This document shows positions 3,485 through 61,432 of a DNA stretch of 64,000 nt, in pieces; the stretch's first letter is position 1; the number at the start of each line of letters is the position of its first letter. The stretch covers positions 434,001 through 498,000 of the forward strand of contig NC_004545.1 in assembly GCF_000007725.1 (NCBI RefSeq). Direction: 5' to 3'. A program made the position numbers and the translations under genes. This DNA comes from Buchnera aphidicola str. Bp (Baizongia pistaciae). GTDB taxonomy: Bacteria > Pseudomonadota > Gammaproteobacteria > Enterobacterales > Enterobacteriaceae. The notes below the pieces were generated by a model. It was not told the origin of the DNA. It worked only from the letters and a program-made list of their open reading frames with translations, and searched no databases.

Positions 3485-5887
3485 TTAGGGATAGAATTCT
3501 TTTAATTTTTTTTTAGCAGATAATAATATACACTTAGGTAACTTAGCTAATGCAGCAACAACTAATCCGTAACTTTTATTAATAAAACCATTTTTTATAA
3601 CATAAGTAAAAACAATTTCGTTATTGTGTTCTAAAACATCAAAATACATATTCCTAATATTAGAATAATAATTTTTTAATTTAGTTAATTCAAAATAATG
3701 CGTAGAAAACAAAGTCATAGCATTTATCTTTCCTGCTAAGTATTCTATACATGCCCAAGCTAATGATAAACCGTCATGCATCGATGTACCTCTTCCTAAC
3801 TCATCTATTAACACTAAACTATTTGATGTTGAATTACGCAAGATACTTGACATTTCTATCATCTCCATCATAAAGGTTGATTCTCCATAAGCTAAATTAT
3901 CTGCAGAACCAATCCTAGTAAAAATTTTGTCACATAATCCAATACGTGCATACTTAGCAGGAACAAAACTTCCTATATAAGCCATAATAACAATTAATGC
4001 TATTTGACGCATATAGGTACTTTTACCACCCATGTTAGGACCTGTAATAATTAACATATTAGAACTTTTAGATAAATTAATCGAATTTTTAACAAATGGA
4101 GTTTTTAATAGATTTTCTACAACTGGATGACGACTATCAGTTAACAATATACCATATTCATCAGAAATTACCGGGCAAACATAATTCAATACGCAAGCTC
4201 TTTCGGTTAAATTGTTTAAAACATCTAATTCAGATATAGTATTTACACTTATTTTTAATGAATCTATATATGGAATAATAAAATCAAATAATTCATTATA
4301 CAAATAATTTTCTATTTCTAATACTTTATCTTTAGCATTATTCACGTTGTTTTCATAATCTAATAATTCTAACGTAGAATATCTAACACAATGCTTCAAA
4401 GTTTGAATTTTTTTATAATTATTAGGTGCTAACTTAATATCTTTTTTACTAATTTGAACATAATAACCCAATACTCTATTATTGTTAACTTTTAATGACG
4501 TTATATGCAACCGTTTTCTCTCACTAACTTCAAAATACTGTAAATACTCCGAAGCATTATTAGCTATTTTTCTCCATTTATCTAAATCTTTATTATAGTT
4601 TTCAGAAATAACATTACCTTCTTTAATTGTTTTAGAAGGACAAACTTTTAAAGAACGTCGTAATAAAATTAATATTGAATTATATTCTTTTATCTTACAA
4701 CTTATTAGCTCTAATGTTTTACTCTTAGTACTGTTTAATACAAAAATAATCTTAGAAAATTGAAGTAAAGCTGATCTCATAGAAACAAAATCTTTAGGTG
4801 AAGCAGACCTGCATGCTATTCTAGATATAATTCTTTCTAAATCTCCTATTCCTTTTAGTAGAAGTGATAAAGACATATAAACAGTTTTTAAAGATTTAAT
4901 TATATTATGCCGCTTATTAATAATTTTAATATCTTTTATAGGAGCACTTAACCATTTTCGTAATAATCTACCACCCATTGGTGTAGCCGTATTATCAAGA
5001 ATAGACAACAATGTATGTTCTTTTTTTCCAGAAATATTATTAATAATTTCTAAATTTTTGCGAGTAGCTGAATTCATAAAAATATGATTACAATCATACC
5101 TTACTTTTATTGATTTTACGTGAGGTAATAACGAATATTGAATAAATTTTAAATATTTTAATAGACAACCCGCTGCAGATATAGCTAAATTATTCTGATA
5201 TACTCCAAAACTTTTTAAATTTTTAGTCTTAAAATGACATTTTAATTGCTGATATGCACTATCAATGTTAAAATCATTTAACTTGCATAGTCGAATACCT
5301 TTTCTTTTTTCAAAAAAATTCATATAAAGAAAATCTTCTTGTATTAATAACTCTTCTGGATCTGTACGTTGCAACTCTGATATAAAACTTTCAAACGTAT
5401 CATATTCAGAAATATAAAAATTCCCAGAACATAAATCTAATGTAGCATATCCAAATCTTTTTTTAGAATAATATACAGATCCTAATAAATTATTTTTAGT
5501 TTCACTTAAAAATTCTTCATCAATTACTGTTCCAGGGGTCACTACCCTCGAAATTTTTCGTTCAATTAAACCAGTACGTTTATCGATTATATGAGTTTGT
5601 TCACATATTACAGCTGATTCACCTATTTTTAATAATTTAGACAAATAACGATTTAATGAAGTATATGGAATACCAGCCATCGGAATCTCTTTTTGTGAAG
5701 AATAGCCCCGTTTAGTCAACGTAATATCTAACATTAAAGAAATTCGTTTAGCATCATCAAAAAATAATTCATAAAAATCACCTAATCTATAAAATAAAAA
5801 CATATTAGGATAATGCAATTTTAATGATAAATACTGTTTTATCATCGGAGTATCATTGTTTTTTTTATTCATTATTATTTTACTCAT
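3485..5887 (-). CDS. mutS: DNA mismatch repair ATPase MutS
   Basis: MutS recognises mismatches and small loops and recruits MutL. The N-terminal mismatch-reading motif GDFYELF (Phe38 and Glu40 here) is intact, as are the Walker A loop GPNMGGKST (about residue 616), the Walker B region LIDELGRGTS and the STHYFEL switch. At 800 residues it is about 50 shorter than E. coli MutS (853). The missing part is the C-terminal tail that carries the tetramerisation region, so a dimeric form is likely. ATG at 5887 is used; Met6 is an alternative. The gene is divergent from dsbA, with a 255-base spacer presumably carrying both promoters. No internal lesion is seen. Confidence 0.96.
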   Translation of the reverse strand: MSKIIMNKKNNDTPMIKQYLSLKLHYPNMFLFYRLGDFYELFFDDAKRISLMLDITLTKRGYSSQKEIPMAGIPYTSLNRYLSKLLKIGESAVICEQTHIIDKRTGLIERKISRVVTPGTVIDEEFLSETKNNLLGSVYYSKKRFGYATLDLCSGNFYISEYDTFESFISELQRTDPEELLIQEDFLYMNFFEKRKGIRLCKLNDFNIDSAYQQLKCHFKTKNLKSFGVYQNNLAISAAGCLLKYLKFIQYSLLPHVKSIKVRYDCNHIFMNSATRKNLEIINNISGKKEHTLLSILDNTATPMGGRLLRKWLSAPIKDIKIINKRHNIIKSLKTVYMSLSLLLKGIGDLERIISRIACRSASPKDFVSMRSALLQFSKIIFVLNSTKSKTLELISCKIKEYNSILILLRRSLKVCPSKTIKEGNVISENYNKDLDKWRKIANNASEYLQYFEVSERKRLHITSLKVNNNRVLGYYVQISKKDIKLAPNNYKKIQTLKHCVRYSTLELLDYENNVNNAKDKVLEIENYLYNELFDFIIPYIDSLKISVNTISELDVLNNLTERACVLNYVCPVISDEYGILLTDSRHPVVENLLKTPFVKNSINLSKSSNMLIITGPNMGGKSTYMRQIALIVIMAYIGSFVPAKYARIGLCDKIFTRIGSADNLAYGESTFMMEMIEMSSILRNSTSNSLVLIDELGRGTSMHDGLSLAWACIEYLAGKINAMTLFSTHYFELTKLKNYYSNIRNMYFDVLEHNNEIVFTYVIKNGFINKSYGLVVAALAKLPKCILLSAKKKLKEFYP

Positions 5888-8741: not shown

Positions 8742-8991
8742 AATATTGTCCTCAAAAGTCTTTATAATACAACAAATTTTCTGATAATCTATTGTATCAA
8801 CTAAATACATTATAAATATATAACTTAATATCATACATATACTAACAATTACACTATAAAATAAATATTATTTTAAAATACCTATTTATCAATCATAAAA
8901 TTAATACAAATATTTTTAATAAAACAAATATTTCGTTACAAAAAATGTTAATATTGCTTCATAATAATAATTATATTTTATATTACATACT

Positions 8992-10842
8992 ATGTCTCTA
9001 AATATTATGCAAAAAAAAACAAACAAAAACCTCAGAAATATAGCAATTATTGCGCATGTAGATCACGGAAAAACTACCTTAGTTGATAAATTACTACAAC
9101 AGTCAGGAACTTTTAAAAAACATGAAGAATTTTCCGAACGAATTATGGATTCAAATGATCTAGAAAAAGAAAGAGGAATTACTATTTTAGCAAAAAACAC
9201 TGCCATTCAATGGAAAAAATACCGAATAAATATCATTGATACTCCAGGACATGCTGATTTTGGTGGAGAAGTAGAGAGAATTTTATCTATGGTAGATTCT
9301 GTATTATTAGTAGTTGATGCTCTTGAAGGACCCATGCCGCAAACTAGATTTGTCACTCAAAAAGCATTCAGTTATGGTATTAAACCAATTGTAGTCATAA
9401 ATAAAATAGACAGAAAACATGCTCGACCAAACTGGGTTATAGATCAAATATTTGATTTATTTGTTAATCTTAATGCTACAGATGAACAACTAGATTTTCC
9501 TACTATATATACTTCAGCATTACTAGGAACATCAGGAGTATCATATAATCATATGAATCCCGATATGATTCCACTATATAATGCTATTGTAAAATATACT
9601 CCACCACCAACTGTTTATCCAAATTGTCCATTTCAAATGCAAATTTCACAATTAGATTATGACAACTACTTGGGAATTATTGGTATCGGGCGTATCAACA
9701 AGGGATCAGTTACATCAAATCAATCTATATCTATAATTAATAATACTGAAGTTAAAAGAACCGGGAAAATTGGGAAAATATTACAATATTTAGGTCTTAA
9801 TAAAATTGAAATCAATGAAGCACAATCAGGAGACATAATAGCAATTACCGGAATTGACAAATTAAACATTTCAGATACTATTTGTGATCCTCAATATATT
9901 AGTGCTTTACCAATGCTTAAAATAGATGAACCAACAGTAGAAATGCTATTTTCTGTAAATAAATCACCATTTTCAGGAACAGAAGGAAAATATATAACGT
10001 CTAGACAAATATTTAATCGTTTAAAAAAAGAAGAAAATTACAACGTAGCTTTAAAAATTAAAGAAACTAACGATACTAACACATTTTCCGTTTCTGGACG
10101 AGGAGAATTACACTTATCTATTTTAATTGAAAATATGAGACGAGAGGGGTTTGAACTAGAAGTATCACGTCCTCAAGTAATTTTAAAAACGATTAATGAA
10201 TTAATACAAGAACCTATGGAAACAGTAGTATTAGACATTGAAAATAAATATCAAGGAACGATCATGAAAACTATAGGACAAAGAAAAGGTACGATATCAA
10301 ATATTACTCCTGATCAAAACAATGAGCGTACTAGACTAGACTGTATAATAAGTAGTCGTTCTTTAATTGGATTTAGAACAGAATTTTCAACTTTAACATC
10401 TGGATCTGGATTATTTTATTCTACTTTTAGCCACTATCAAAAAATAGAATCTAACAAAATTAAAAGACATAGAAATGGTGTATTAATCGCAAACAAAACA
10501 GGACAAGCTATTGGATTTTCTTTATTTAATTTACAAAACCGTGGTAAATTATTTATAACACACGGAACAAAAGTCTATGAAGGTCAGATTGTCGGAATTC
10601 ATAATCGGGTCAACGATTTAACAGTAAATTGTTTATCAGGAAAAAAATTGACCAATATGAGAGCATCAGGTTCTGACGAAGCTATAACGTTAACGACACC
10701 AATTAAAATGACCTTAGAATACGCAATTAGTTTTATTAATGATGACGAATTAGTAGAAATTACACCAAAATCTATAAGATTAAGAAAACGTTACTTAAAA
10801 GAAAACGAACGAAAAATTTTACTTCGAAATATTAAAGAATAA
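8992..10842 (+). CDS. typA: Translational GTPase BipA/TypA
   Basis: A ribosome-binding GTPase of the EF-G-like family, implicated in 50S assembly and stress adaptation. The G domain shows [15 protein letters not shown] (P-loop), [19 protein letters not shown] and NKIDR. Domains II, III and V and the BipA C-terminal domain follow. At 616 residues it is close to E. coli BipA (607). The family start aligns with [13 protein letters not shown], so either ATG 8992 or Met6 at 9007 could be used; no strong ribosome-binding site separates them. It ends only 44 bases from convergent gmk. No lesion is seen. Confidence 0.96.
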
Positions 10843-54307: not shown

Positions 54308-54625
54308 ATGATAAAACAAAAAATAATAAATTTACTTCAAAAAAAAATAAACTACGAAAAATTAAAAATATACAACGAAAGTAAAAAACATAATATAACT
54401 CACAATAAAAATTCTCATTTTAAAATTTTAATAGTTAGTAACTATTTTATAAACATTGATATTATTGACAGACACAGAAAAATATATTCTTGGTTATCAA
54501 TATTTTTTTTTAAATATAAAATAAAATCACTATCAATATACGCTTACACTACTTTAGAATGGAAAAATAAAAAATGCAAAAGTTTTTTTAACTCTCCCTT
54601 ATGTAAAAATAAACCTAATTCATAA
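54308..54625 (+). CDS. bolA: BolA-family protein
   Basis: BolA partners with monothiol glutaredoxins in Fe-S and redox regulation and affects morphology under stress in E. coli. The 105-residue protein (105 in E. coli) has the family segments [21 protein letters not shown] (the conserved SHFK), [13 protein letters not shown] (xRHRxxxS) and [13 protein letters not shown]. Its position upstream of the clpP region matches E. coli. No glutaredoxin is in the window. Confidence 0.93.
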
Positions 54626-55271
54626 TCATACTAAATAATACTTTAAATATACGTACTTATTAGAAACAATGCTTAAAATACTTATACAATTACATATATC
54701 AAATTTCTAATTTGAAAAATTTTAATATTCATTAATATTCTTACGAGTATAACTAATTTCAACAACGAAAGAATTATTTGTCAATTTTATCTTCCTAAAT
54801 GTAAAATCGACAAACTATGCATTACGTGTATCAAAAATGTTTAAAAATTTACCAAAATTTTCATTCACAATACAATTTTGACATGCTTCTAAAAAATACA
54901 CATCATTACTTACAAAAGATATCAAAATATATAAATGACATATCAAAATCTCTAAATAAATCTTAATACTATTTTAACATACATAATAAATAATCTGTTA
55001 ACTTAAAAACTATACATTCTTCTTTTCAAATATAACTTCTAAACTATATCTAAATTTTAAATAGCGCTAATATTTTTTAAAATAATTTAAATAATAAATA
55101 TGAATGTTTTGACACTTATTAACACATACTAAAATAAAATTAATATTTAACTAAAATACGACTACATAATGTAAAATATTATTGGTTCAATAATGTAAAA
55201 CTAAATACATGTAACATAATTCTGGTAAAAAATATAATTTCAATAAATCCTAATATTCAAGAGACACTATA
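54626..55271. other. Gene-free gap at the usual tig position
   Basis: These 646 bases lie between bolA and clpP, where E. coli and, to my knowledge, other Buchnera have tig (trigger factor). No intact frame remains and I could not align any fragment convincingly. Half the length of tig is left, in line with an old, partly deleted gene. The absence of intact tig here is seen; that the gap is a tig relic is inference. Confidence 0.5.
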
Positions 55272-55889
55272 ATGACACTTTATGACAAAGAAATTAATAA
55301 AAATTCACTTCTTATTCCTATGGTTATCGAAAAAACTTCATATGGAGAACGTTCATATGACATATATTCTAGACTTTTAAAAGAACGAATAATATTTTTA
55401 ACAGGAACTATAGATGACAACACAGCAAATTTAATAGTAGCTCAAATGTTATTTTTAGAAGCCGAAAATGCCAAACAAGATATTTATATCTATATAAATT
55501 CTCCAGGAGGGGTGATTACAGCTGGAATGTCTATTTACGACACCATGAAATTTATAAAACCCAATGTAAATACTATATGTATAGGACAAGCGTGTTCTAT
55601 GGCTGCATTAATACTAACTGCAGGAAAAAAAGGATATAGATACTGTTTACCTAATTCTAGAATTATGATTCATCAACCTATAGGAGGTTATAACGGACAA
55701 GCTTCAGATATCGAAATTCATGCTAAAGAAATCATAAAAGTAAAAAGAAAACTCAATGAACTAATGGCATTTCATACTTCACAAAGTATTAATACTATAG
55801 AAAAAGATACCGAAAGAGATTGTTTTCTTTCAGCTAATCAAGCTATAAAATACGGATTAATAGATACTATTTTAAGCTACAGAACATAA
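55272..55889 (+). CDS. clpP: ATP-dependent Clp protease proteolytic subunit
   Basis: A serine protease forming a double-heptamer chamber that ClpX feeds. The 205-residue protein (207 in E. coli) includes the short N-terminal prosegment, [19 protein letters not shown], the catalytic Ser109 in GQACSMAAL and the catalytic His in [10 protein letters not shown]. The catalytic Asp lies in the [19 protein letters not shown] region. clpX follows after 83 bases in the same direction, as in E. coli. Confidence 0.97.
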
Positions 55890-55972
55890 AAACTACTATT
55901 TAAAAACATTATTACATTTTTAAAATATAAATTATTACATTTAAAATTTTTTGTTAAAATAAAGAGAAATCA

Positions 55973-57259
55973 ATGGTAGATAATAGCAAAAACAATACCG
56001 AAACACTATTATGTTGTTCTTTTTGTGAAAAAAATCAAAAAGAAGTAAAAAAACTAATAGCTGGATTATCAGCGTATATTTGCGATGAATGTATAAAATT
56101 ATGCAATAATATTCTTGAAGAAGAAAATAACAATTTATCATCATATTATGATGTTAAAAAAAAAATACCTACACCATATGAAATATTTAAACATTTAGAT
56201 AACTATATAATAGGTCAATTACACACAAAAAAAGTACTATCAGTTGCAGTATATAATCATTATAAACGCTTGAACCATTTAAACTCAAAAAAAAATAATA
56301 ATATTGAACTAGGAAAAAGTAATCTATTGCTAATCGGACCTACAGGATGTGGAAAAACTCTATTAGCTGAAACATTAGCAAAATTTCTTGATGTTCCATT
56401 TTCTATATCTGACGCTACAACGCTAACTGAAGCTGGGTATGTAGGAGAAGATGTTGAAAATATCATCCAAAGATTATTACAAAAATGTAATTATAATATA
56501 AAAAAAGCAGAAACAGGAATTATTTATATAGATGAAATAGATAAAATTTCTCGAAAATCTGAAAACCCTTCTATCACCCGTGACGTTTCTGGAGAAGGTG
56601 TACAACAAGCATTACTAAAATTAATAGAAGGTACATTAGCTTCAGTTCCAATGCAAGGCGGAAGAAAACACCCGCAGCAAGAATTTTTAAAAGTGGATAC
56701 TTCAAAAATTTTATTTATATGCGGAGGAGCATTTTTGGGTTTAAATAAAATTATTGAAAAAAGAACAAAATTAGGTACTAAAATTGGGTTTAATGCTAAA
56801 GTAAACAAAAATCTTAAAATTTGTTCTAAAGACGCACTAATGCAACAAGTCATTCCTGAAGATTTAATTAAATTCGGACTAATACCTGAATTTATCGGGC
56901 GCTTACCTATATTAACAATACTACATGAATTAGATAAAAAAATGTTAGTTAAAATTTTATCTGAACCTAAAAATGCACTAATTAAACAATATCAAACACT
57001 ATTTAAACTTGAAGATGTTGAACTAAAAATTTGTACAAAAGTTATAGAATATATAGCTCAAAAAGCTATGAACCAAAATACAGGAGCACGAGGTCTACGA
57101 TCAATTATAGAAATGCTTTTACTAGACACCATGTACCGCTTACCTTCTATGACTAATATAAAAACAATTATAATAGACGAATCAACCATAGTGAACAATA
57201 ATTTAACCCCAATATTAATTTACAAAAAACATGATTCTAAAACCACATCTGGTAAATAA
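55973..57259 (+). CDS. clpX: ATP-dependent Clp protease ATP-binding subunit ClpX
   Basis: A hexameric AAA+ unfoldase that recognises tagged substrates and delivers them to ClpP. The N-terminal zinc-binding domain has CSFC and [10 protein letters not shown]. Walker A is [12 protein letters not shown], Walker [11 protein letters not shown], and sensor 2 is near [11 protein letters not shown]. The ClpP-contacting IGF loop region falls in the QTGIGFNAK-like stretch, here GTKIGFNAK. At 428 residues it matches E. coli (424). RBS AAGAGA upstream of the ATG. Confidence 0.97.
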
Positions 57260-57278
57260 AACACATAACTATCTAGTT

Positions 57279-57293
57279 TCTAATAAGATTAGA
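57279..57293 (+). terminator. Possible weak terminator after clpX
   Basis: TCTAAT-aag-ATTAGA is a perfect 6-bp stem 20 bases after the clpX stop, followed by a T-rich run (TTATTTATTTTT). Short and AT-rich, so only suggestive. Confidence 0.35.
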
Positions 57294-57445
57294 TTATTTA
57301 TTTTTAAGTTAATAACGTTAAATACCTCGAGTATTTATTCAAAACATACTCAAAATTTTATTATAGTTTTTAAATAATATGGTGGTCTACTCAGTATAAT
57401 TTTTTAATTTTTAAAAAATTATCATTGAAACTAAGAGAGAATCGT

Positions 57446-59788
57446 ATGAATCCAGAGCGTTCCGAATATATTGAAATTCCTGTTTTACCGCTACGTGATG
57501 TAGTTATCTATCCGTATATGGTAATTCCATTATTTGTAGGAAGAGATAAATCTATTAAATGTATTGAAGCATCTATGAATAAGAATAAAAAAATAATGTT
57601 GGTTACACAAAAAGAAGCAGAAATTGATGAACCTACAGATAATGATTTATTTACCATTGGAACTACAGCTTCTATTTTGCAAATGCTAAAATTACCTGAC
57701 GGAACAGTAAAAGTATTAGTAGAAGGATTACAGCGTGCAAAAGTTAAAAAAATTAATAATGAAAACGGCTATTTCACTGCTCAAATTCAATTAATATGCA
57801 CACCTGAAATCACAGAAAAAGAACAGTCTATACTAATCAGAACAACATTAAATCAATTTGAAAACTATGTTAAATTCAATAAAAAAATTTCTCCTGAAAT
57901 TTTAAATTCATTAAACAATATTACAAATGCTTCGCAATTGTCTGATATGATCGCTATTCATATGCCGCTAAAATTATCAGAAAAACAATCTATATTAGAA
58001 ACATATAATACTAATGAAAGATTAGAGCGTCTAATGGCAATAATGGAATCAGAAATTGACTTATTGCAAGTAGAAAAACGAATTCGAAATCGAGTTAAAA
58101 AACAAATGGAAAAAAGCCAAAGGGAATATTATTTAAACGAACAAATGAAAGCCATACAAAAAGAATTAGGTGAAATGGACGAAACACTCGATGAACACGA
58201 AATTTTAAAACGAAAAATAACTACAATAAAAATGCCAAAAGAAGCACAAGAAAAAATGGCATCTGAATTACATAAATTAAAAATGATGTCACCTATGTCT
58301 GCTGAGGCTACAGTAGTCAGAAGTTATATAGATTGGATGATTCAAATCCCATGGAATATACGTAGCAAAGTCAAAAAGAATTTAACACAAGCTCAAAAAA
58401 TTCTTGATTCAGATCATTTTGGATTAGATAAAGTCAAAGAACGAATTTTGGAATACCTCGCAGTTCAAAGTAGAATTAACACAGTAAAAGGACCTATTTT
58501 GTGTTTAGTAGGGCCTCCCGGGGTTGGAAAAACATCTTTAGGACAATCAATAGCACGCGCAACAGGAAGAAAATATATTAGAATGGCACTAGGTGGTATT
58601 CGAGATGAAGCTGAAATACGTGGACATCGAAGAACTTACATAGGTTCTATGCCAGGAAAAATAATCCAAAAAATGGCAAAAGTAGGCGTAAAAAATCCAT
58701 TGTTTTTATTAGATGAAATAGATAAAATGTCTTGCGATATACGCGTTGATCCAGCATCAGCACTATTAGAAGTACTAGATCCAGAACAAAATGTAGCATT
58801 TAACGACCATTATCTAGAAGTAGACTATGATCTTTCTAACGTAATGTTTATTGCAACATCTAATTCTACTAATATCCCAGCACCTTTGCTAGATCGAATG
58901 GAAATTATTCGCATTTCAGGATATACTGAATTTGAAAAATTAAATATAGCAAAATCATATTTAAAACCAAAACAAATTAAGAGAAACGCTTTAAAAAGCA
59001 ACGAACTAACTATAGAAGACTCTGTTGTTACTAACATAATTCGATACTATACTAGAGAAGCTGGAGTAAGAAACTTAGAACGCGAATTATCAAAAATTTG
59101 CCGAAAATGTGTTAAAAACTTAATTCTAAACAAATCCTTAAAAAAAATAAAAATTACCACTGATAATTTACACGATTATCTTGGAATAAAAAAATACGAT
59201 TTTGGAAAAACAAACTACAAAAATCAAATTGGGCAAGTAATTGGTTTAGCATGGACTGAAGTAGGCGGAGAACTATTAACAATCGAAGCAGCTTGCATAT
59301 CAGGTAAAGGAAAATTAATTTATACAGGATCTTTAGGAGAAGTAATGCAAGAATCTATTCAGGCTGCTTTAACAGTAGTACGTTCACAAGCAAACAAACT
59401 GGGAATTAAAAAAAATTTTTACGAAAAAAATGATATTCACGTTCATGTTCCTGAAGGTGCTACACCTAAAGATGGACCTAGCGCTGGTATAGCTATGTGT
59501 ACAGCAATAGTATCTTGTTTAACCGGAATTCCTGTAAAATCTGATATAGCTATGACAGGAGAAATAACTTTAAGAGGCCAAATACTAACTATAGGAGGAT
59601 TAAAAGAAAAACTCTTAGCAGCACATAGAGGTGGTATAAAAAAAGTTTTAATTCCTTATGATAATGAAAAAGATTTACAAGAAATTCCAAAAACAATTCT
59701 TAAAGGTCTTTTTGTACATCCTGTAAAGCACATTAAAGAAGTTTTAAACTTATCTTTAGAAAATACTCCTTATTTTAGTTCTAAATAA
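57446..59788 (+). CDS. lon: ATP-dependent protease La (Lon)
   Basis: An AAA+ serine protease that degrades misfolded and regulatory proteins. It has an N-terminal substrate domain, Walker A GPPGVGKTSLGQS, Walker B LLDEIDKM, and the C-terminal Ser-Lys protease with PKDGPSAGIAMC (Ser) and GGLKEKLLAAHRGG (Lys). The frame opens at a TTG at 57425, but ATG at 57446 (MNPERSEYIEIPVL) matches the E. coli start and gives 780 residues (784 in E. coli), with AAGAGAG as ribosome-binding site. Very well conserved. hupB, which follows lon in E. coli, is absent. Confidence 0.98.
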   Translation: MNPERSEYIEIPVLPLRDVVIYPYMVIPLFVGRDKSIKCIEASMNKNKKIMLVTQKEAEIDEPTDNDLFTIGTTASILQMLKLPDGTVKVLVEGLQRAKVKKINNENGYFTAQIQLICTPEITEKEQSILIRTTLNQFENYVKFNKKISPEILNSLNNITNASQLSDMIAIHMPLKLSEKQSILETYNTNERLERLMAIMESEIDLLQVEKRIRNRVKKQMEKSQREYYLNEQMKAIQKELGEMDETLDEHEILKRKITTIKMPKEAQEKMASELHKLKMMSPMSAEATVVRSYIDWMIQIPWNIRSKVKKNLTQAQKILDSDHFGLDKVKERILEYLAVQSRINTVKGPILCLVGPPGVGKTSLGQSIARATGRKYIRMALGGIRDEAEIRGHRRTYIGSMPGKIIQKMAKVGVKNPLFLLDEIDKMSCDIRVDPASALLEVLDPEQNVAFNDHYLEVDYDLSNVMFIATSNSTNIPAPLLDRMEIIRISGYTEFEKLNIAKSYLKPKQIKRNALKSNELTIEDSVVTNIIRYYTREAGVRNLERELSKICRKCVKNLILNKSLKKIKITTDNLHDYLGIKKYDFGKTNYKNQIGQVIGLAWTEVGGELLTIEAACISGKGKLIYTGSLGEVMQESIQAALTVVRSQANKLGIKKNFYEKNDIHVHVPEGATPKDGPSAGIAMCTAIVSCLTGIPVKSDIAMTGEITLRGQILTIGGLKEKLLAAHRGGIKKVLIPYDNEKDLQEIPKTILKGLFVHPVKHIKEVLNLSLENTPYFSSK

Positions 59789-59823
59789 AATATAACCTTG
59801 TTATTAAATAATTTTAAATTTTA

Positions 59824-59852
59824 TCTGGCAAATTAAAACATAGTTTGCCAGA
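59824..59852 (+). terminator. Terminator after lon
   Basis: TCTGGCAAA (59824-59832) pairs perfectly with TTTGCCAGA (59844-59852) around an 11-base loop, 36 bases after the lon stop. The GC content of the stem stands out in the local background. The T-tract downstream is poor, so read-through to ppiD is possible. Confidence 0.65.
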
Positions 59853-59896
59853 CTGCAATTATAAATTTACATATAAGGTAACTTAGTATATTAACA

Positions 59897-61432
59897 ATGC
59901 ACAAACTAACATCAAAATTATCTAATTTAATTCTACTATTATTAATAATAATAATTTTTATATCATTAATTTTAACAAACTTTAATAACTATTTGTTAGA
60001 AAATTTATCAGAATACGAAATTAAAATAAACAATACAGAGATTAGTCGAGAAGAATTTATCCAAAGATATAACCTAGAATGTTTCTATAATGATAAAAAT
60101 TTTAAAAACGATATTATTACAAATCCTAAAAATCCAAAATATATCTCAGAAATTTATAATATAACATTATCAAACATAATATATGAATCATTATTACAAC
60201 AATACGTACATCAACTCCATTTTAACATTGATTATTCACATGTAAAAAATTATATATACAAACAAACTATTTTTAGACAAAATCAAAAATTTAATAAAGA
60301 AAAATACTATGAATATTTAAAAAAATTACAAATAAGTTCTAATGAATATATTAAAAAAGTTATGACATATTTAGAAATAAAAGAATTTATTAAGACTCTT
60401 ACTAATACAGACTTTATACTAAATAATGAAAAAAATAATATTCTAAAATTATTTGAACAGGGTAGAATAGTTAACAAATCTTATGTCAATCTTAATAATC
60501 TAAAATTAATAGAACACATAAGTAATAAAGAACTCAAAAGATATTACATTAATCATAAACATCAATTTTTATCACCAAAAAAATTTAAAATTAGTTATTT
60601 TTTAATAAATAAAAATAATGTTTTTGTACCATGTATTAAAAAATTTTATTTTAAAAACAAAGATAATACTTTTCAACATGAATTATTTTTACAACACAAA
60701 AAATCAAAAAAACAAAATGATAATATTATTAAAAAATTACTGACAACACACACAAATACCTCTCAGTTTAAAAATATTATTCAAAAAAATAACATATGTA
60801 TACATCATACACCATGGTTAACACAAACATTATACAAACACGAAAAATTACCTAAAAAATTATTAAAATATATTATTAACAATAATATTTTATTTCATAA
60901 TAACAAAAACACTATTAAAAACTATCCTACAATCATACATATGAATAACAATAATGCTTATGTTTTATGGATACAAAAATATGAAAAAGCAACAATAGAA
61001 AATTTTTCTAAAAAAATTCGAAAAAAAATTATAAATATTCTAAAAAACGAACATTCTAAAAAAATTCGTTACCAAATTGTTCAAAAAATAGTATATCAAT
61101 TAAATCATGGTGACACGAACTTGTTTAGTCAACTAAAATTAAAATTCAGTAATTCAGAATATTATTCTAGATTTAACACTAATACATTAACTAATAAAAT
61201 ATTTTCACTGCCAATTCCAAAAAAAGGACAAAAAATTTATTTTATATTTCATGATCAAAAAAAACTATTTTTATACCAATTTTCAAATATCTTCTATTTT
61301 AAACTTACTAAAAAACAAAAAAAAATGATTGCGTCTTATATATCACAATCTCATTCAGAAATAATACTAAATGCTATTTTAGAAAATTTATATAAAACAG
61401 CACATATTTCTTATAAAGGATATATTAATTAA
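59897..61432 (+). CDS. ppiD: PpiD-like periplasmic chaperone lacking the parvulin domain
   Basis: PpiD is anchored in the inner membrane near SecYEG and helps proteins leave the translocon. The 511-residue product has one N-terminal membrane segment (residues about 10-27), then YEIKINNTEISREEFIQRY and KFNKEKYYEYLKKLQISSNEYIKKV, as in the SurA-like domain. The C-terminal part includes HTPWLTQTLYKHEKLPKKL, KYEKATIENFSKKIRKKI and a tail like E. coli. Between YYINHKHQFLSPKKFKISYF and the later part I find no parvulin-like core. The length deficit (511 against 623) equals roughly one parvulin domain. Very AT-drifted, but the frame is complete. Confidence 0.85.
   Translation: MHKLTSKLSNLILLLLIIIIFISLILTNFNNYLLENLSEYEIKINNTEISREEFIQRYNLECFYNDKNFKNDIITNPKNPKYISEIYNITLSNIIYESLLQQYVHQLHFNIDYSHVKNYIYKQTIFRQNQKFNKEKYYEYLKKLQISSNEYIKKVMTYLEIKEFIKTLTNTDFILNNEKNNILKLFEQGRIVNKSYVNLNNLKLIEHISNKELKRYYINHKHQFLSPKKFKISYFLINKNNVFVPCIKKFYFKNKDNTFQHELFLQHKKSKKQNDNIIKKLLTTHTNTSQFKNIIQKNNICIHHTPWLTQTLYKHEKLPKKLLKYIINNNILFHNNKNTIKNYPTIIHMNNNNAYVLWIQKYEKATIENFSKKIRKKIINILKNEHSKKIRYQIVQKIVYQLNHGDTNLFSQLKLKFSNSEYYSRFNTNTLTNKIFSLPIPKKGQKIYFIFHDQKKLFLYQFSNIFYFKLTKKQKKMIASYISQSHSEIILNAILENLYKTAHISYKGYIN

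Follow-up and report, generated by a model that had tools for sequence, protein, structure and literature searches.

Locus and gene content

The DNA analysed here (the window) is a stretch of 64,000 nucleotides of Buchnera aphidicola str. Bp from Baizongia pistaciae (NC_004545.1, positions 434,001 to 498,000), whose genome, G000 in our samples, comprises 618,379 bases, of which 615,980 form the chromosome. It contains the gene order bolA, a gap of 646 bases, clpP, clpX, lon, ppiD and mdlA. Two features of this locus concern us: a ppiD whose product is without the canonical parvulin domain, and the gap, which is the usual place of tig, the gene for trigger factor. The original prediction read the two as coupled losses.

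The ppiD orthologue (59897..61432, on the plus strand like bolA, clpP and all parts of ppiD placed below) encodes 511 residues with a SurA_N_3 domain (PF13624, 1.3e-18). A single strong hydrophobic segment, starting at residue 8 (Kyte-Doolittle 19-residue maximum 3.14), marks the putative N-terminal membrane anchor (residues ~8-37, 59918..60007), and both features are expected of the PpiD family. The position downstream of lon and upstream of mdlA is also that of ppiD; the order clpX, lon, ppiD is the same in the window, E. coli and four relatives, and the window mdlA is 61-66% identical to mdlA of five genus members. The NCBIfam model NF008054 (PpiD) gave 207.5 bits in two stretches against a cut-off of 493, which is below the score of a full-length equivalog. 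Judged from its sequence, the protein is a parvulin-less PpiD orthologue and not a full member of the family, and we infer that it works like PpiD though it lies outside the full-length definition. In E. coli the gene hupB separates lon from ppiD; neither the window (59789-59896) nor any of the four relatives inspected has it there.

Domain make-up of PpiD

Seven domain profiles were built from 32 full-length PpiDs, with borders taken from passages of PMC9643414 on E. coli PpiD: the NC domain at residues 38-186 and 580-622 (profiles NC_N and NC_C), the second domain at 187-223 and 477-578 (D2N and D2C) and the third domain at 228-261 and 360-470 (D3N and D3C), the parvulin lying between the halves of the third. 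The E. coli parvulin structure 2kgj covers residues 264-359 and agrees with the border used.

The NC, second and third profiles match the window PpiD in order. NC_N covers residues 1-185, anchor included (59897..60451, 129.9 bits), followed by D2N at residues 188-226 (60458..60574, 28.5 bits) and D3N at 227-256 (60575..60664, 15.3 bits). The diverged second half of the third domain is matched by D3C at residues 265-367 (60689..60997, 22.9 bits), D2C lies at 372-467 (61010..61297, 60.4 bits), and NC_C covers the C-terminal helix of the NC domain at 470-507 (61304..61417, 31.3 bits), which in E. coli is the part in contact with YfgM. About 8 residues are left between the third-domain halves (257-264, 60665..60688), at the junction of the missing parvulin. 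The parvulin profile gave -0.4 bits on the window PpiD, whereas 34 full-length PpiDs (32 used for building, with G173 and G195 independent) score 69-123 bits and 9 more, outside its training set, 101-122 bits. The part absent corresponds to E. coli residues ~262-359.

A profile of the whole protein with the parvulin cut out scored 311.9 bits and covered residues 1-508 in one piece, while the full-length profile gave 301.7 bits and those with the third domain or both domains cut out gave 229.5 and 235.4 bits, respectively. The prediction of a PpiD about 112 residues short (511 residues against 623 in E. coli), with the deficit on the parvulin and the anchor and SurA-like chaperone parts remaining, is thus borne out.

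Identity of the middle segment

The segment inside the second domain was compared with both candidates. On the window PpiD the joined third-domain profile reached 27.8 bits against 1.6 bits for the parvulin with its flanks (best stretch), and hhalign with residues 227-371 gave the third domain a probability of 96.3 (E 1.5e-9) and the parvulin with flanks 1.1. When the segments of G008, G237, G028 and G098, genomes met again below, were added, these values became 98.9 (E 2e-17) and 15.7. Moreover, in all five PpiDs that keep the third domain the parvulin-cut-out whole-protein profile beats the one with the third domain cut out.

Several observations weigh against this assignment. Pfam Rotamase_2 matches the window PpiD at residues 246-371 (E 3.5e-11), and the isolated segment 227-371 is matched too (36.7 bits). 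On E. coli PpiD the strongest match of this family covers the canonical parvulin plus its flanks (247-369), and the second half of the E. coli third domain alone has no Pfam match. The structure model is also poor at residues 239-292, with a predicted local distance difference test (pLDDT) score mostly below 50. The Rotamase_2 match would be expected if the segment were a degenerate parvulin and the third domain the one that was lost. The E. coli parvulin matches three Pfam parvulin families, of which Rotamase_2 is the only one to match the window PpiD; Rotamase and Rotamase_3 give no match there. This, together with the profile and hhalign scores given above, makes a degenerate parvulin very unlikely, and we conclude from the sequence comparisons that the middle segment is the third domain; the Rotamase_2 match is left without explanation. 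According to passages of PMC9643414 the second and third PpiD domains share a fold, and in VIA-align, with middling Z-scores, model residues 186-471 resemble a borrelial peptidyl-prolyl isomerase (PPIase) domain (Z 7.1) and residues 183-466 human Parvulin 14 (Z 5.7). Because of this shared fold and parvulin likeness, a parvulin-related fold of the second and third domains may, on the model, be the reason for the match.

The model was made with AlphaFold2 from the window PpiD and 29 enterobacterial PpiDs, in an alignment where some of the third domain occupies columns of the parvulin, which may lower the confidence at 239-300. It has a mean pLDDT of 70.8 and a predicted template modelling score of 0.40; the E. 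coli PpiD control reached 82.5 and has the parvulin strands and helices at 268-357. No strand of at least 3 residues is listed at 239-344 of the window model, and two low-confidence helices stand at 275-297. The strands at 345-348 and 353-363 have a shape that fits either third domain or parvulin, and the anchor is modelled as a helix at 10-37, partly with low confidence.

The best Foldseek hit by E-value was 8zht_A, the PpiD-YfgM complex (E 4.9e-10), with a TM-score of only 0.22. In VIA-align the top row was 2pv3_A, SurA without its second PPIase domain (Z 14.1, root-mean-square deviation 6.7, 262 residues aligned), with which other SurA chains tie. Seven SurA chains, one per entry, matched model residues 37-509 at Z 12.4-14.1, as expected of a SurA-type NC module fold, and trigger factor chains gave Z 4.2-5.8. 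The PpiD parvulin entry 2kgj does not appear among the matches listed by either fold search, an absence to which we attach no importance. A search of the window PpiD sequence against PDB chains gave no match.

The empty tig slot

The gap (54626..55271) is bordered on the left by bolA (54308..54625; Pfam BolA 68.8 bits, E 5.2e-19, residues 10-83) and on the right by clpP (55272..55889; Pfam CLP_protease 281.7 bits). It has 19% guanine plus cytosine, and no open frame of at least 60 codons is listed in it. This is where tig sits in E. coli and in the four tig-positive genus members inspected. A Tig profile run over the six frames of the gap reached at best -0.4 bits, equalled by 49 of 200 dinucleotide shuffles, while 230 bases cut from a genuine tig gave 111 bits; tblastn found nothing better than E 0.16 among the matches listed. 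A tig relic in the gap was rejected, as the profile test did no better than shuffles. A tig elsewhere in the genome was likewise rejected, neither Trigger_N nor Trigger_C having a match, and in both respects the original prediction of an empty slot and a lost gene stands.

Our genus sample has 11 members, G000 included. Trigger_N is present in nine, only G000 and G008 being without it, and Trigger_C in eight, G010 being the third without it. G010 nevertheless has tig, with a Trigger_N match and an open frame of 434 codons at the slot; among controls, Trigger_N matched 10 of 14 and Trigger_C 9 of 14. G008 has a gap of 599 bases at the bolA-clpP position, also without a relic by the profile test (score reached by 32 of 200 shuffles).

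In the Buchnera of Pemphigus obesinymphae (L067, NZ_JAIWQW010000001.1) there is no tig between bolA and clpP, as judged from that locus only, and no ppiD between lon and mdlA; the loci without the two genes lie at 3505-4331 and 8856-9500. A tree of ClpP, ClpX and Lon from eight genomes places G000 and G008 together, apart from four tig-positive members, and the Pemphigus symbiont beside E. coli (support 100 each). It implies at least two losses of tig, though its shape may be affected by long branches and base composition.

PpiD in the genus and the family

PpiD is present in all 11 genus members and in all of them its parvulin is missing, nine of these genomes keeping tig. In the nine, PpiD has 340-374 residues and the second half of the third domain scores at most 3 bits, with small D3N matches (up to 6.5 bits) at other places in the protein. 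The two tig-negative members have longer PpiDs, in which the second half of the third domain reaches 22.9 bits (G000) and 9.5 bits (G008). The loss of the parvulin probably goes back to an ancestor shared by this Buchnera group.

For the family 295 genomes were drawn and 80 were searched for PpiD, namely all 56 without a Trigger_N match besides G000 (here called tig-negative) and 24 small tig-positive ones chosen by size. Sorted on the length of the open frame and on score, 40 of the 80 carry a PpiD-type match, 15 a SurA-type match only and 25 none. Fifteen small tig-positive genomes and the Pemphigus assembly were added later. The final set, which is not a random sample, holds 59 intact PpiDs, 43 full-length and 16 parvulin-less. 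G058 (448 residues from the first ATG in an open frame of 604) and G195 (602 residues) were classed as full-length by their parvulin scores (32.3 and 69.4 bits). G213 stands outside the 59 and is counted as PpiD-bearing in the comparison with YfgM; a run of 15 A (L058 2126-2140) interrupts its ppiD reading frame, and an overlapping frame of 469 codons carries the parvulin onward, which could be a slippage site or early decay.

The 16 parvulin-less PpiDs, with at most 0.8 bits for the parvulin, are the 11 of the genus and those of G098, G028, G237, G031 and G175. All of them match NC_N (105-199 bits), D2C (25-76 bits) and NC_C (15-39 bits). The second half of the third domain is matched in five (9.5-65.9 bits) and unmatched in 11; outside the genus the third domain is kept in G098, G028 and G237 and lost in G031 and G175. 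A scan of genome contigs with a PpiD-alignment profile returned no loci. Starting from MdlA, the best 80 of 398 loci included 74 with PpiD, all with a parvulin match; nearly all were from larger enterobacterial genomes. Only one of the 80 was a Buchnera, and the scan may omit close relatives of the window. The parvulin is also kept, in full-length PpiDs, in three genomes of genus g11 (G020, G168, G255), with chromosomes of ~444-448 kb and no Trigger_N match.

Relationship between the two losses

If tig loss and PpiD stripping were one event in a shared chaperone network, they should go together, and they do so in G000 and G008 and, in two further genera, in the small genomes G098, G031 and G175. 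Against this, eleven stripped PpiDs belong to tig-positive genomes and 21 full-length ones to tig-negative genomes, and within the genus it is the tig-positive species that carry the more reduced PpiD. Over the 59 intact PpiDs tig is missing beside 5 of the 16 stripped and 21 of the 43 full-length proteins (p=0.26, uncorrected for relatedness); before nine of the genomes were added, p was 0.069, in the opposite direction. Coupling of the two was rejected for want of an association, and a single coupled event appears exceedingly improbable. As related symbionts with tig have a PpiD cut further, the two losses do not appear linked. Nor did the overlap in clients supposed for PpiD and trigger factor find support: the overlap in the reference list of PMC2956729, a source covered in part, involves SurA, and none with trigger factor was found there.

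A different relation, compensation, is suggested by the genus itself, where the tig-less G000 and G008 keep the third domain that the nine tig-positive members lost. The third domain would then be kept after tig loss for extra chaperoning in the periplasm or at the translocon, and be dispensable where tig is kept. The pattern is a single phylogenetic contrast, however, with G000 and G008 on one side of the tree and four members on the other (support 100), and outside the genus G031 and G175 have neither tig nor third domain and G028 and G237 have both. Trigger factor is a cytosolic, ribosome-bound protein, and that it and PpiD act in different compartments also counts against compensation, which we regard as unlikely.

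Order of loss and selection

All 16 stripped PpiDs fit a loss from the inside outwards, as none keeps the parvulin without the third domain and none is without the NC module. Parvulin-less PpiDs occur in five genera (g1, g89, g22, g19 and g127), and two of these contain both types: g19 (G028 without, G173 with parvulin) and g127 (G237 without, G136 with). If the genera are natural groups, stripped and unstripped PpiDs in one genus mean separate losses, and there were probably at least five, as far as these sequences tell.

Some points weigh against this order. Two full-length PpiDs have a strong parvulin and a weak third domain (G173, 2.7 bits; G195, 10.2 bits), a pattern that leaves room for erosion in reverse order. 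Third-domain scores are low in G008 (9.5 bits) and G028 (14.0 bits), in G028 and G237 the first half of the third domain finds its best match on the second domain, and six doubly stripped PpiDs have less than 5 bits for D2N. Moreover, nested insertion makes the inside-out order partly a geometrical necessity.

Stripping might also be plain decay, each stripped PpiD being a non-functional relic on its way out. The Buchnera of Pemphigus obesinymphae, without ppiD at lon-mdlA and without a SurA_N_3 or YfgM match in its assembly, could be the end of such a course. The stripped genes of the 16 genomes nevertheless remain open over 334-511 codons and keep the anchor and the YfgM-binding helix, YfgM itself is mostly kept along with PpiD, and the ratio of nonsynonymous to synonymous divergence (dN/dS) is ~0.3 in two close, doubly stripped pairs: G004-G007 (dN 0.069, dS 0.203, ratio ~0.34) and G031-G175 (dN 0.078, dS 0.274, ratio ~0.28). 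For G000-G008, where dS is high, dN is 0.364, dS 0.664 and the ratio 0.55. Plain decay is thus quite improbable, and we read these values as purifying selection on stripped PpiDs.

YfgM and other prolyl isomerases

YfgM (PF09976) is present in all 11 genus members. Among 46 genomes searched it was found in 28 of the 31 with PpiD and in none of the 15 without (p=1.6e-9, uncorrected for relatedness). In G000 yfgM stands at the chromosome end (L148 1-981), directly adjoining a gene that by eye resembles the Der GTPase; in E. coli, bamB sits between the two. A strict pairing has points against it: G237, G136 and G173 have PpiD and no YfgM match, and in passages of PMC3246468 YfgM is given for four Buchnera and PpiD ('Pipd') for three, the Baizongia pistaciae strain among them. 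The Buchnera of Cinara cedri has YfgM there and is not in the statement on PpiD, a counter-example.

The Pfam parvulin PF00639 has no match in any of the 11 genus members, though this profile misses diverged parvulins that our own profile finds (G020, G168, G255 and G136). G000 has no second SurA_N_3 match, and cyclophilin was found in none of the 46 genomes. The one FKBP match in G000 is an FkpA-like protein of 251 residues (FKBP_N and FKBP_C; L147 477-1232, minus strand, outside the window), and no other prolyl isomerase was detected in this genome. The idea of a cell lacking prolyl isomerases altogether was therefore rejected for G000. Four other genomes, G015 and G165 (g6) and G061 and G190 (g52), have no Trigger_N, SurA_N_3, PF00639, FKBP or cyclophilin match and are candidates, within the limits of these profiles, for bacteria without detectable prolyl isomerase.

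A proposed minimal PpiD

We think it likely that the window gene is a working ppiD orthologue, which lost a dispensable innermost parvulin independently of tig and whose remaining unit acts as a YfgM-bound holdase at the SecYEG exit. By analogy with E. coli PpiD, the anchor and NC module, perhaps with the second domain, would be positioned with YfgM where SecYEG opens into the periplasm, and there the remaining unit would catch emerging chains and hold them. In support of this placement, passages of PMC9643414 report that the NC domain of E. coli PpiD crosslinks to YfgM (at I599/V600), that contact with SecG requires the PpiD-YfgM complex, and that in a model the NC domain lies above the SecY channel. 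Prolyl isomerisation would fall outside the selected function of PpiD, and what remains of it in the periplasm of this cell is probably due to FkpA.

As each PpiD domain is inserted in the next, deletions would proceed from the inside outwards: parvulin, third domain and finally the whole gene with YfgM. A broader proposal, to which we give even chances, is that genome reduction ran this same series repeatedly, from full PpiD to one without parvulin, then without third domain, then gone together with YfgM. The selected unit would then be the YfgM-bound holdase of NC and second domains at SecYEG, ~335-375 residues, with parvulin and third domain unneeded even where no other parvulin is detected.

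That PpiD works without its parvulin is already known, having been shown in E. coli in 2010: passages of PMC2956729 state that parvulin-less PpiD complements an fkpA ppiD surA mutant and is a better chaperone in vitro. This agrees with the suggestion that only the chaperone part matters, which is, however, not new. The main text of PMC1544356 contains none of tig, trigger, ppiD and yfgM, and no paper on the reduction of Buchnera ppiD (ybaU) was found in a search that left supplements and most subscription papers outside. Nor did any of the papers listed for endosymbionts or trigger factor treat it, judging by titles and, for trigger factor, by how the abstracts open. As described in passages of PMC4007534, both domains and linkers vary in length in such symbionts; as that sample was restricted to orthologues of identical domain make-up, the PpiD case falls outside it. 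As far as the searches reach, the inside-out peeling of nested PpiD domains in five genera looks new. The passages on E. coli cited here show, for the inner domains, no more than that the parvulin is dispensable. The natural series of separately trimmed PpiDs, with NC module and second domain kept and YfgM mostly so, points to the smallest unit that works, and through it the function of the third domain can be tested directly. It also illustrates that losses co-occurring in one symbiont genome need relatives before they are read as coupled.

Comparison with known systems

SurA without its parvulin domains, that is its core N+C module, is likewise a chaperone core without isomerase, and differs in being soluble and not known to bind YfgM, unlike PpiD of E. 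coli. Trigger factor, whose function is not the same as that of PpiD, was not found in this genome though its slot is conserved in relatives. According to passages of PMC9643414 it has a structurally related NC module. With E. coli PpiD the window protein shares the anchor, the NC module, the second domain, the place downstream of lon and a YfgM gene in the genome, and differs from it in having no parvulin, a strongly diverged third domain and no hupB between lon and ppiD. Another close likeness is the parvulin-deleted PpiD made in the laboratory, as described in parts of PMC2956729, of which the window PpiD is a natural counterpart with much the same deletion. The Buchnera deletion, in contrast, was fixed by evolution, and relatives went on to lose the third domain as well.

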